Origin: Epilithonimonas zeae
Lineage (GTDB): Bacteria > Bacteroidota > Bacteroidia > Flavobacteriales > Weeksellaceae
Assembly (NCBI RefSeq): GCF_023278365.1
Contig: NZ_CP075338.1
Span: 2,976,001-3,040,000, forward strand
Direction of reading: 5' to 3'
DNA length: 64,000 bases
Shown here in pieces: positions 53,517 to 56,754 of the stretch; the stretch's first letter is position 1; each line of letters begins with the position of its first letter. A program made the position numbers and the translations under genes. The notes beneath the pieces were generated by a model, which had not been told where the DNA came from, searched no databases, and saw only the letters and a program-made list of their open reading frames with translations.

Positions 53517-54860
53517 ATGAGAGTAGTAATACTTGGAGGAGGTGAAAGCGGTGTTGGTGCCGCGTATTTGGCAAAAGCCAAAGGCTTTGATGTCTTTCTT
53601 TCGGATATGGGAATTATCCGTGAGAATTACAAAAAAGAACTGGACGAACTAGGGATTGATTATGAAGACGGAATACATTCTGAAGAAAAAATTCTGAATG
53701 CCGATTGGGTCATCAAAAGCCCCGGAATTCCAAAGAAGGCAGAAATGGTTCAGAAGATTCAGGAGAAAGGAATCCGGTTATCTTCTGAGATTGAATTTGC
53801 ATCGGAATTTACCAATGCAAAAATCATTGCGATTACAGGAAGTAACGGGAAAACGACGACAACGTCTTTGATTTATTACATCCTGAAAGAAGACGGTTTC
53901 AATGTCGGATTGGGTGGAAACATAGGGAAGAGCTTTGCAAAACAGGTGGCTGAAGAGAGTTTTGATTATTATGTATTGGAAGTGAGCAGCTTTCAGTTGG
54001 ATGATATTCAGAATTTCAGACCCTACATTTCATTGTTGTTGAATTTGTCTAAGGACCATCTTGACCAATACAATTATAATTATGAAGAATATGCATTGGC
54101 AAAGTTCAGAATTGCTGAAAATCAGGATGCTAATAATTTTTTTATCTATAACAAAGATGACGAAATGAGCAAATCGATTCTTGAAAAATTGGATTTGAAA
54201 GTGACAAAAGTTCCATTCTCATTAGATGAAAAATTGGAAAAAGGTGCTTTCTCGATTGATGAAAATTTTGTAGTCAATATCAATGAAGGATTCACAATGA
54301 ATATTGACGAACTGTCATTGGTTGGAAAACATAATGTAGCAAATAGCCTGGCAGCAAGTATCGCTGGAAAGTTATTGGAAATCAGTAATGAAAGTATCAG
54401 ACATTCATTGATGACATTCCAGGCGGTTGAGCACAGATTGGAGCCAGTGGCTGAAATCAGAGGTGTAAAGTTCATCAACGACAGTAAGGCAACAAACGTG
54501 AATGCGACTTACTTCGCTTTGGAAAGTATGAAACAGCCGGTGGTTTGGATTGTTGGCGGAAAAGACAAAGGAAATGATTATACTGAAATCGAAGAATTAG
54601 TTAAGAAAAAAGTAAAAGCAATTGTTTGCTTAGGAATTGATAATTCTAAGATTATTGAGTTCTTCAAAGACAAGAAAACACAGATTTATGACACTTCCAG
54701 TATGCAAAAAGCGGTAGAGGTTTCTAAATCAATTGCAGAAAAAGGAGACGTAGTTTTATTGTCGCCTTGTTGCGCAAGTTTTGATTTGTTCAATGGTTAT
54801 GAAGACCGTGGAAATCAATTCAAAAAAGAAGTTTTAGAAGAATTGACAATTAAGAATTAG
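53517..54860 (+). CDS. murD: UDP-MurNAc-L-alanine:D-glutamate ligase
   Basis: A 447-residue Mur ligase that adds D-Glu. The Rossmann-like N-terminal domain starts with VVILGGGESGVGAA, the ATP loop GSNGKTTTT is at about 113-121, and the C-terminal domain has IVGGKDKGNDY and LLSPCCASFDLF. Length is normal. It is followed by the RAYT transposase insertion rather than directly by ftsW. Confidence 0.95.
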   Translation: MRVVILGGGESGVGAAYLAKAKGFDVFLSDMGIIRENYKKELDELGIDYEDGIHSEEKILNADWVIKSPGIPKKAEMVQKIQEKGIRLSSEIEFASEFTNAKIIAITGSNGKTTTTSLIYYILKEDGFNVGLGGNIGKSFAKQVAEESFDYYVLEVSSFQLDDIQNFRPYISLLLNLSKDHLDQYNYNYEEYALAKFRIAENQDANNFFIYNKDDEMSKSILEKLDLKVTKVPFSLDEKLEKGAFSIDENFVVNINEGFTMNIDELSLVGKHNVANSLAASIAGKLLEISNESIRHSLMTFQAVEHRLEPVAEIRGVKFINDSKATNVNATYFALESMKQPVVWIVGGKDKGNDYTEIEELVKKKVKAIVCLGIDNSKIIEFFKDKKTQIYDTSSMQKAVEVSKSIAEKGDVVLLSPCCASFDLFNGYEDRGNQFKKEVLEELTIKN

Positions 54861-54876
54861 AATTATCAACAGGATT

Positions 54877-54924
54877 GGGCTTTAGCCCGTTCTAAAAATA
54901 AACGAACAAATTGGCTTTAGCCAA
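54877..54924. repeat. REP-like palindrome pair, upstream copy (direct)
   Basis: GGGCTTTAGCCC (54877-54888) and TTGGCTTTAGCCAA (54911-54924) separated by 22 bp. The same pair recurs at 55461-55510 and inverted at 55374-55420. It lies between murD and the RAYT gene. The flanks also match the downstream direct copy (ATCAA, GGATT, TTCT, AAA). Confidence 0.8.
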
Positions 54925-54932
54925 AATAAAAA

Positions 54933-55370
54933 ATGCCATTTGTAAAAGTTTACATACACATTGTTTGGAGTACAAAAAACAGAATTCCTTTTCTCAATTC
55001 CAAAAATTTGAGAATCAATGTATGGAAACACATAAAACAAAATGCAAATGAAAAAGAAATTTTTATAGATGTTGTAAATGGATATTCAGACCATTGTCAT
55101 TGTTTAATTTCTTTGTCAACAAACCAGACAATAGAGAAAGTTGTACAATTGATAAAAGGAGAATCTTCATTTTGGATTAATAAGAATAATCTGACCAAAG
55201 AGAAGTTTGCTTGGCAAGATGAATATTTTGCCGTTTCTGTTTCAGAATCGATGATAGAGAAAGTCAGAAATTATATTATTAATCAAGAAAAACATCATTT
55301 AACAAGAAGTTTTTCTGAGGAATATGAAGAATTTATTTCAAAATATAATTTTAATTCAAAAGAAAAATAA
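54933..55370 (+). CDS. RAYT-type (REP-associated) tyrosine transposase, Y1 family
   Basis: A 145-residue single-domain transposase of the IS200/IS605 Y1 family. The HUH metal motif appears as HCH (54-56, DHCHCLIS), where Cys takes the hydrophobic position, and the catalytic Tyr is Y114 (NYIINQEKHH). Length is about that of TnpA-REP proteins, and no TnpB gene or left/right ends of an IS are seen. It is flanked on both sides by palindrome pairs of one family, which is the mark of a RAYT. It sits within the dcw operon, in the same direction as the genes, so it seems tolerated or domesticated. No stops or frameshifts. Confidence 0.85.
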   Translation: MPFVKVYIHIVWSTKNRIPFLNSKNLRINVWKHIKQNANEKEIFIDVVNGYSDHCHCLISLSTNQTIEKVVQLIKGESSFWINKNNLTKEKFAWQDEYFAVSVSESMIEKVRNYIINQEKHHLTRSFSEEYEEFISKYNFNSKEK

Positions 55371-55373
55371 GTT

Positions 55374-55420
55374 TTGGCTAAAGCCAATGTGATAATGATA
55401 AGAAACATCAGGCTAAAGCC
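55374..55420. repeat. REP-like palindrome pair, inverted copy
   Basis: TTGGCTAAAGCCAA (55374-55387) and GGCTAAAGCC (55411-55420) separated by 23 bp. This is the reverse complement of the upstream pair, starting 3 bp after the RAYT stop. With the upstream copy it makes inverted ends around the gene. Confidence 0.8.
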
Positions 55421-55460
55421 GGACGCAATTGAAAATAAAATTTTAGACATCAATAGGATT

Positions 55461-55510
55461 GGGCTTTAGCCCATTCTGAAATATTAAAGAAAAAATTTGG
55501 CTTTAGCCAA
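55461..55510. repeat. REP-like palindrome pair, downstream direct copy
   Basis: GGGCTTTAGCCC (55461-55472) and TTGGCTTTAGCCAA (55497-55510), separated by 24 bp, in the same direction as the pair at 54877-54924. It ends 8 bp before the ftsW ATG, so it replaces the normal ftsW leader. Confidence 0.8.
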
Positions 55511-55518
55511 AACTTATA

Positions 55519-56754
55519 ATGAGCGAACAAACTACAGAAAACAGATTCGAGCTACTGAAAGGCGACAAAGTCCTTTGGTCGGTTATCATTTTGATTTCCT
55601 TCCTTTCCGTATTTCCGGTTTATTCCGCAAGTTCGAATCTGGAATATATCGTGAACAACGGGACTACAACTGGTCACGTTTTCAAGCATATCGTTTTCGT
55701 ATTCATTGGTTTGGGAATTATGCGTTTCGTAGGAACAGTCAAGTACGAATACATCGGAAAACTGAGTTCCATTCTTCTCTTGTTCACGATTGGATTATTG
55801 CTGATAACAATGTTCACAGGACAAAAGATTGAAGGAGCAAGTGCTTCGCGTTGGTTGAAAATCCCAGGAACACCAATTTCTTTTCAGCCATCGTCGTTTG
55901 CTTATTTGATGCTGATTATTTATCTGTGCAGATATTTGACTAAGAAAATCAAAAGGGAAAGAGTTCCAATTGAGAACATCATTTACATATTCGGACCAAT
56001 TCTAATTGTGTTCGGATTGGTTGCAAAAGACAACGGTTCCACAGCATTGATGATTATGATGGTTTCAATTATCATTCTGATTATAGGACAATTGGCTTGG
56101 CAATATGTAGCGGGGTTTATCTCGGTTGCTGTTGTTTTTGTTGTAATGTTTTTAGTCATTGCTTTGAATACGAATTTAATCGGAGGAAACCGGGTTCATA
56201 CCTGGATGAGCCGTATCGAAACCTTCACGAGTTCCAAGAAAACAGCTGATGTTGAGGATGAAAGTATCAAGGCAAAAAACTATCAGGTGATGCAGGCAAA
56301 AGCGGCTATTGTTCACGGTGGATTCAACGGAATTGGACCTGGGAAAAGTGCTTTGAAGCAGACATTACCACAATCGGTTTCCGATTTTATTTTCGCAATT
56401 ATTGTGGAAGAATACGGCTGGATTGGAGCGTTTGTTTTGATTAGCCTTTATATGATAATGATTATCAGGATTGTAATGATAGCCAGTAAAATGCCCGCTT
56501 TTTTTGGGTCATTGCTGGTGCTCGCCATTGGACTGATGATTTTTGTTCAATTGTCAGTAAACATTGCTGTTGCTGTGAATTTGATTCCGGTAACAGGTCA
56601 GCCTTTACCATTGATAAGTTATGGAGGAACGTCGATGTTGGTAACCTATATTCAATTAGGAATTATTTTGAATGTAAGTTCCAGAATTCAGGTTTTCGAT
56701 GAAGAAGGTTTGGGCAAAAGACAAAGTATTGAAGAAATAAATGATATCGCATAA
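55519..56754 (+). CDS. ftsW: Peptidoglycan glycosyltransferase FtsW
   Basis: A 411-residue SEDS-family protein with about ten membrane segments that polymerises lipid II at the septum. Visible features are a charged extracytoplasmic loop (NRVHTWMSRIETFTSSKK), the motif LVAKDNGSTALMIMMV and GAFVLISLYMIM, and PVTGQPLPLISYGGTSML, which holds the conserved SEDS segment. It starts 8 bp downstream of a REP-like palindrome. murG begins directly at its stop codon. Confidence 0.94.
   Translation: MSEQTTENRFELLKGDKVLWSVIILISFLSVFPVYSASSNLEYIVNNGTTTGHVFKHIVFVFIGLGIMRFVGTVKYEYIGKLSSILLLFTIGLLLITMFTGQKIEGASASRWLKIPGTPISFQPSSFAYLMLIIYLCRYLTKKIKRERVPIENIIYIFGPILIVFGLVAKDNGSTALMIMMVSIIILIIGQLAWQYVAGFISVAVVFVVMFLVIALNTNLIGGNRVHTWMSRIETFTSSKKTADVEDESIKAKNYQVMQAKAAIVHGGFNGIGPGKSALKQTLPQSVSDFIFAIIVEEYGWIGAFVLISLYMIMIIRIVMIASKMPAFFGSLLVLAIGLMIFVQLSVNIAVAVNLIPVTGQPLPLISYGGTSMLVTYIQLGIILNVSSRIQVFDEEGLGKRQSIEEINDIA

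Follow-up and report, generated by a model that had tools for sequence, protein, structure and literature searches.

A probable REPtron-like unit on the IS200 side of the Y1 transposase family between murD and ftsW of Epilithonimonas zeae

The window analysed here, the whole stretch of 64,000 nucleotides from Epilithonimonas zeae, contains murD, a gene encoding a 145-residue Y1 (HUH) transposase and ftsW in succession on the positive strand (Table 1). The transposase between the two host genes had been proposed from the open reading frames, and its Pfam match confirms the assignment. All six exact copies of the palindrome core GGCTTTAGCC in the 64-kb window fall within 54878-55508, where they form three two-hairpin modules; nine copies are found when up to one mismatch is allowed, against a mean of 1.58 in shuffled sequences, with none of 100 shuffles reaching nine. 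The first module begins 4 nt past the murD stop codon, and the hairpins of the two direct copies are spaced 22 and 24 bp apart, with the last module ending 8 bp ahead of the ftsW ATG. These distances agree with the original prediction, as does the direct, inverted, direct order of the modules, however the inverted copy is of a different end type, in which the outer hairpin is followed, in the reading sense of the module, by GATG and not by RTTY. Rfam analysis returned two sub-threshold matches only (21.6 and 19.4 bits against a threshold of 40), which were rejected, and PADLOC returned no match.

Table 1. Genes, modules and repeats at the murD-ftsW junction, in window coordinates.
Feature	Coordinates	Strand	Basis or remarks
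murD, host gene upstream	53517-54860	+	Pfam MurD/Mur ligase domains
REPtron-like unit (type-A module, transposase gene, inverted type-B module)	54865-55431	+	foot ATCAAC to foot (CAATTGA); consensus feet; layout > > tnp < < in homologous loci
Type-A module 1	54865-54929 (end approximate)	+	hairpins 54877-54888 (GGGCTTTAGCCC) and 54911-54924 (TTGGCTTTAGCCAA)
Y1/HUH transposase ORF, 145 aa	54933-55370	+	PF01797, 94.6 bits; TnpA_Y1 subclass 1.2 type
Type-B module, inverted	55371-55431	-	inner hairpin 55374-55387; outer hairpin core 55411-55420, GATG-type tag
Type-A module 2	55449-55516	+	hairpins 55461-55472 and 55497-55510; ends just before ftsW
Perfect 21-nt inverted repeat	55367-55517	+	arms 55367-55387 and 55497-55517, 100% complementary; predicted to close an RNA stem that stops one to two bases short of the ftsW AUG
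ftsW, host gene downstream	55519-56754	+	PF01098, 227.7 bits

Alignment of the transposase identifies the motifs H54-C-H56, W94-Q95 and Y114---Q118--H121-H122, with W94-Q95 invariant across the 21 aligned rows. The HCH variant of the HUH motif had been singled out as notable; DHCH occurs in 106 of the 110 close homologue loci (some of which represent one genome counted twice) and is thus a trait of the subfamily. Among 26 far paralogues the same motif reads DHVH in ten, DHIH in nine, NHIH in three and DHLH in three, with one lacking it, and the Y---Q--HH signature is present in all 26 of these loci and in 105 of the 110 close ones. The protein scores 63.7 bits against the NCBIfam IS200 model, above its cutoff of 55, and 36.8 bits against the NCBIfam RAYT model NF047646, below its cutoff of 80. 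The NP(L/V)(R/K)xG motif that follows the catalytic tyrosine in the definition of RAYTs (Nunvar 2010, PMC2817692) is absent, this region reading YIINQEKHH, and no NP is found at this place in the 21 aligned rows. An AlphaFold model of the protein (mean pLDDT 79.4) matches IS608 and ISDra2 TnpA in a search of PDB folds, with a best E of 1.1e-06, and the RAYT structure 4er8 ranks 30th (E of 7.9e-04), behind IS200-type chains.

Subclass 1.2 of the TnpA_Y1 proteins is characterised by Y---Q--HH, WQ, a length of about 148 residues, low copy number and occurrence in Bacteroidetes (Quentin et al. 2018, PMC6006769). The present protein shares the signature, the WQ pair and a length close to that value, and its copy number is low, with exactly one match at E ≤ 1e-30 in 106 of the 108 family genomes that have such a match. 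It departs from the published description in two respects: the HuH motif is given there as DH[IV]H and is DHCH in this subfamily, and the subclass is tabled with REP 'no', whereas cognate inverted palindromes are found here. By its motifs the transposase is of the IS200-branch subclass 1.2 type. Its placement in the RAYT family proper, as first suggested, is not supported, as the motif, the score and the palindrome foot (CAAT, ATCAATAGG / CAATTGCGTC in 120 modules, and not GT[AG]G) all fail; what stands of that suggestion is a single-copy Y1 gene within the dcw cluster, with its own dispersed palindrome modules and with inverted modules on its flanks. The E. zeae genome (3.94 Mb, single contig) encodes one Y1 gene and no second. 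The transposase gene evolves under purifying selection (dN/dS 0.07-0.10), which points to selection for function. One of the four murD-ftsW carriers, G017 (an assembly 88% complete), has a stop at codon 130.

The number of modules in the whole genome, on which the first suggestion also depended, was determined with the pattern GGCTTTAGCC-N14-44-GGCTTTAGCC, using the reversed pattern as a control. The modules are not confined to this locus: the E. zeae genome (G000) holds 10 two-hairpin modules against none for the control, and modules are present in 23 of 23 genus genomes, with the control at zero in all 23. Single GGCTTTAGCC sites in G000 number 26 against 8 for the reversed control, and four lone ones lie within ORFs. 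Comparison of 120 distinct genus modules with their flanks (the genus pattern counts sum to 124) separates 84 of type A from 36 of type B, with a sharp boundary at ATCAATAGG / CAATTGCGTC. The left edge before the core is ATCAATAGGA-AYG in the 84 type-A modules and CAATTGCGTCG in the 36 of type B, the latter set apart by a GATG (32) or AATG (4) tag, and the right end AAAATTTA is common to both. The modules of this clade have two hairpins, A and B ends that differ from each other and a CAAT foot. Covariation in the outer stem is found at pairs 2 and 4 of type A and pair 2 of type B (0 of 1000 shuffles each, the shuffles ignoring relatedness) and is weak at pair 3 of type A (17 of 1000 as high) and pair 1 of type B (6 of 1000); the remaining stem pairs of both types show no covariation beyond shuffles, nor does hairpin 2 beyond the core. 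In 43 of 84 type-A and 31 of 36 type-B modules the next 35 nt contain an inverted hairpin with at most two mismatches (control 0), so that modules often form A/B inverted pairs, and the unit in the window has the same layout with the gene inside.

Two published repeat types were compared with these modules. GGGCTTTAGCCC occurs inside a GTAG-headed H. influenzae REP in Nunvar 2010 (PMC2817692), a resemblance judged to be coincidence. Type B reads CGTCGGGC and was compared with the CGTC-tagged repeats of PMC3733652, but that paper describes CGTC repeats as unlinked to transposases and type A has no such tag, and this identification was not adopted.

A survey of insertion sites covered 40 modules flanked on either side by at least 700 nt, some of them at sites that several species have in common, with ORFs of at least 100 aa called mechanically. 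No module lies inside an ORF (0 of 40), and 24 of 29 type-A modules are located 3′ of a co-directional gene, 10 of them at most 13 nt from its stop codon. Presence and absence can be followed at matching sites, where the breakpoints cannot be fixed exactly because the intergenic DNA has diverged. At G000:103039 the neighbouring gene is found in 14 of 23 genomes, which show GGCTTTAGCC modules, other palindrome families or neither; in G001 there is no module and CAATCAATA is retained at the spot. At G000:85238, where the neighbouring gene is found in 12 of 23 genomes, an A/B pair is present in G000 and G005, altered in G001 and G014, and absent from G007, G009 and G022, and other palindromes stand in its place in G003, G018 and G019.

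The surrounding stretch G000:C1:103030-103110 (L216) and its matching sites L217-L229 hold at least three palindrome families across species, sometimes in tandem, namely GGCTTTAGCC, AACCCGAAGGGTT/CCTATGG and GTCCCGAAGGGAC/ATAGGAT, and this junction is a hotspot of repeat turnover. Elsewhere, at about 1555-1660 of L001 (about G000:C1 53036-53140), the palindromes GTCCCGAGGGGAC, ATAGGATGAAATCCTAT and CCACAGGTGAAACCTGTGG adjoin a module, although the genome yielded no other Y1 gene; these are probable relics of lost systems.

The association of enzyme and palindrome extends over many Bacteroidota genera. The best 80 of the 145 relatives identified bear titles such as Chryseobacterium, Kaistella, Flavobacterium, Algoriphagus, Spirosoma and Chitinophaga. 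In 74 of these 80 loci the gene has the exact core, oriented as expected, on one side or more, and in 40 on both sides; in the other 40 at least one side lacks an exact hairpin, and three have none even at one mismatch. The wrong orientation is seen upstream and downstream of the gene in 3 of 80 loci each, the reversed-sequence control gives 0, and the counts for windows 1.2 kb away are 0 and 1. A second set of 26 loci, partly overlapping the 80, has the core in 26 of 26. The 80 loci fall by single linkage into 20 gene neighbourhoods (the largest with 36 loci, and 12 loci alone), which are shared within groups and different between groups.

Across 316 family genomes, in which the reversed control finds no module, a genome was taken as a carrier if one of the candidates scored matched at E ≤ 1e-30. 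All 102 carriers have at least one module (median 16, with modules beside the gene counted), and the 214 non-carriers have a median of 1, with 98 at zero; one-sided comparisons of module counts within three genera give p = 0.003, 1e-7 and 7e-5, values that are not corrected for relatedness. Some genomes are rich in modules without a transposase match at this threshold (G163 with 66, G108 with 45 and G188 with 40), and G001, G010 and G022 have 8, 1 and 5 modules with no protein match even at E ≤ 0.001. Either the enzyme has been lost and its modules persist, or they are mobilised by a different enzyme, or the gene was missed.

Genus genomes contain between 0 and 4 protein matches each at E ≤ 1e-3. 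Loci were available for 26 of the 42 other genus matches; these paralogues are 32-45% identical, all have Y---Q--HH, and they carry other palindromes, the two sides of the gene sharing an identical hairpin core in 16 of 26 loci (control 0 of 26). One such palindrome, GCTCCGTAGGAGC, is found in 20 of the 23 genus genomes (control 0). On an enzyme tree of 40 proteins with seven palindrome types, palindrome type changes six times, which is the minimum and is as low in none of 200 shuffles; the type GTCGC does not form a single clade. Enzyme clade and palindrome type belong together, and the partnership is real and conserved.

The murD-ftsW junction was also compared among relatives, as had been suggested. 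The unit is present there in 4 of 23 genus genomes, and the other 19 junctions are 16-92 nt long and contain, by eye, several unrelated sequences. Among the best 80 of 145 relatives, the nearest named homologues are from Epilithonimonas hungarica (96%), E. hominis (95%) and a MAG titled Chryseobacterium (93%), and murD and ftsW adjoin the gene in each; no murD or ftsW match lies near the gene in the 77 named loci outside the genus, within flanks of up to 3 kb. In a tree of murD and ftsW the carriers are not one clade, with G006 sister to the non-carrier G020 and G007 to the non-carrier G022 (support 100 for both), requiring several losses or exchange between species. The dS of the transposase gene (0.20-0.29) is about half that of murD and ftsW (0.49-0.66), which favours exchange, however the lower GC3 of the gene (0.21, against 0.36 for murD and 0.41 for ftsW) may explain part of this difference. 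Given the tree and the dS values, strict vertical descent at this junction is doubtful.

Third-position divergence in ftsW codons 31-60 is 0.08 between carriers, 0.20 between carriers and non-carriers and 0.25 between non-carrier pairs (8 near non-carriers compared). This hints at recombination between carriers but is suggestive only, given that the beginning of ftsW is conserved in every pair and that no dip is seen in murD. Over window positions 55519-55700 (the first ~60 ftsW codons), third-position divergence lies below that of most of the gene and is lowest at codons 31-60 between carriers. The last residues of MurD and the murD-ftsW spacer take at least three unrelated sequence forms among the 23 genus genomes (L057-L079), as if the murD tail had been rewritten by repeats.

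The type-B and second type-A modules face each other, and from this layout alone arises a predicted RNA stem. From the stop codon of the transposase gene into ftsW the predicted fold has a free energy of -54.1 kcal/mol (z -8.66, 0 of 200 shuffles of the window sequence), and its outer stem of 20 bp stops two bases short of the ftsW AUG. A comparable outer stem, ending at most 8 nt from the AUG, is predicted in each of the other three carriers. In a simple scan no terminator-like site was found on the positive strand at the modules; of the four sites returned, three are at modules on the negative strand and one, on the positive strand, is inside the transposase ORF. The unit is tolerated at murD-ftsW, and an effect of the hairpins on ftsW expression is a prediction from folding.

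We consider that the locus probably represents a REPtron-like unit belonging to the IS200 side of the Y1 family. It consists of a single-copy TnpA of subclass 1.2 type bracketed by inverted two-hairpin A and B modules; the A, B and A/B copies dispersed between genes, those of type A for the most part immediately 3′ of a gene, are its presumed non-autonomous derivatives. By analogy with IS608 TnpA and TnpA_REP, the enzyme may bind the hairpins on single-stranded DNA, for example the lagging-strand template, and cleave near the CAAT-containing foot by means of Tyr114 and the HCH metal site; rejoining would then copy or move the modules, with the gene itself rarely multiplying. The facing B and second A modules are predicted to set a strong RNA stem directly ahead of the ftsW start. 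With less assurance, though still on the favourable side, we propose that subclass 1.2 Y1 transposases represent a second, separately derived REPtron lineage, in which across Bacteroidota each enzyme clade keeps its own family of hairpin modules, turning over at the same junctions and capable of putting a strong RNA stem ahead of an essential gene such as ftsW.

An ordinary IS200/IS605 insertion sequence (subclass 1.1), with the modules as its ends and MITEs, would account for the score above the IS200 cutoff, the IS608/ISDra2 folds at the top of the PDB search and the missing NP motif. It would also be expected in several near-identical copies per genome, however family genomes almost always have a single match, with no second Y1 gene in E. 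zeae, and so the relatives do not show the ordinary IS200 against which the original prediction was to be checked. The flanking modules are moreover inverted, whereas the ends of IS608 have the same sense, and the near-universal Y---Q--HH signature of close and far loci and the purifying selection also weigh against this explanation, which we regard as quite improbable. No more credence is given to a true class-2 RAYT with degenerate REPs, the reading first put forward. The arrangement of REP, gene and inverted REP, the single copy, the scattered palindromes and even a weak match to the RAYT model (36.8 bits) are what such an element would show, but the score misses its cutoff, the NP(L/V)(R/K)xG motif is lacking, the foot is CAAT and 4er8 ranks only after the IS200-type chains.

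A different kind of explanation, that the unit is kept because it serves the host, with the hairpins or the protein bound to them tuning ftsW translation, is unlikely. A predicted stem no more than two bases from the ftsW AUG, with its comparable outer stem in all four carriers, and the purifying selection on the gene are consistent with it. Against this, 19 of 23 genus genomes lack the unit at this site, no murD or ftsW match was seen within flanks of at most 3 kb in the 77 named loci outside the genus, and a stem is the automatic result of adjacent inverted modules.

The REPtron-like reading differs from existing descriptions in that cognate repeats are found on a branch of Y1 transposases published as REP-less. 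REP-transposase partnerships are known from class 2 RAYTs and from a small class 3, and among the matches listed in a search of open-licence papers none linked subclass 1.2 with repeats; a gene named RayT has been reported in Chryseobacterium (PMC11194056). The automatic REP search of Quentin et al. 2018 (PMC6006769) sought GT[AG]G feet close to tnpA_REP genes, and non-GTAG modules beside class 1 genes could therefore have escaped it. If subclass 1.2 also has repeats, the change from an IS200-type enzyme to a resident genome factor may have happened more than once, and there would be a likely source for many of the palindromes that lie unexplained between genes of Bacteroidota. Each enzyme clade would offer a natural protein-hairpin pair for recognition studies, and sister species that have or lack the unit at murD-ftsW would offer a handle on whether repeats alter an essential operon.

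Among known systems, IS200/IS605 elements such as IS608 and ISDra2 resemble the unit in their predicted fold, HUH and Tyr residues and hairpins beside the gene; they differ in that the gene here is not multi-copy, the modules are inverted and there is no evidence of movement of the gene as a unit within a genome. Class 3 TnpA_Y1 proteins, placed by Quentin et al. 2018 between IS and REPtron and associated with many non-GTAG hairpins, are alike in these respects, but have a Y----Q motif, a 155-residue core and a distribution in other phyla. REPs usually exceed 100 copies per genome (Nunvar 2010, PMC2817692, abstract), a number against which the 10 modules of E. zeae are few. In the RAYT REPtrons of Nunvar 2010 the protein motifs differ from those found here, where each half consists of two hairpins with distinct A and B ends. 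The A and B modules also match the REPIN arrangement of two closely linked, inverted palindromic units. The system fails the tests for a class-2 RAYT, yet appears to work like RAYT-REP: as in RAYT REPtrons, one gene lies between inverted palindromes of which further copies are scattered over the intergenic DNA of the genome, and enzyme and palindrome co-vary.
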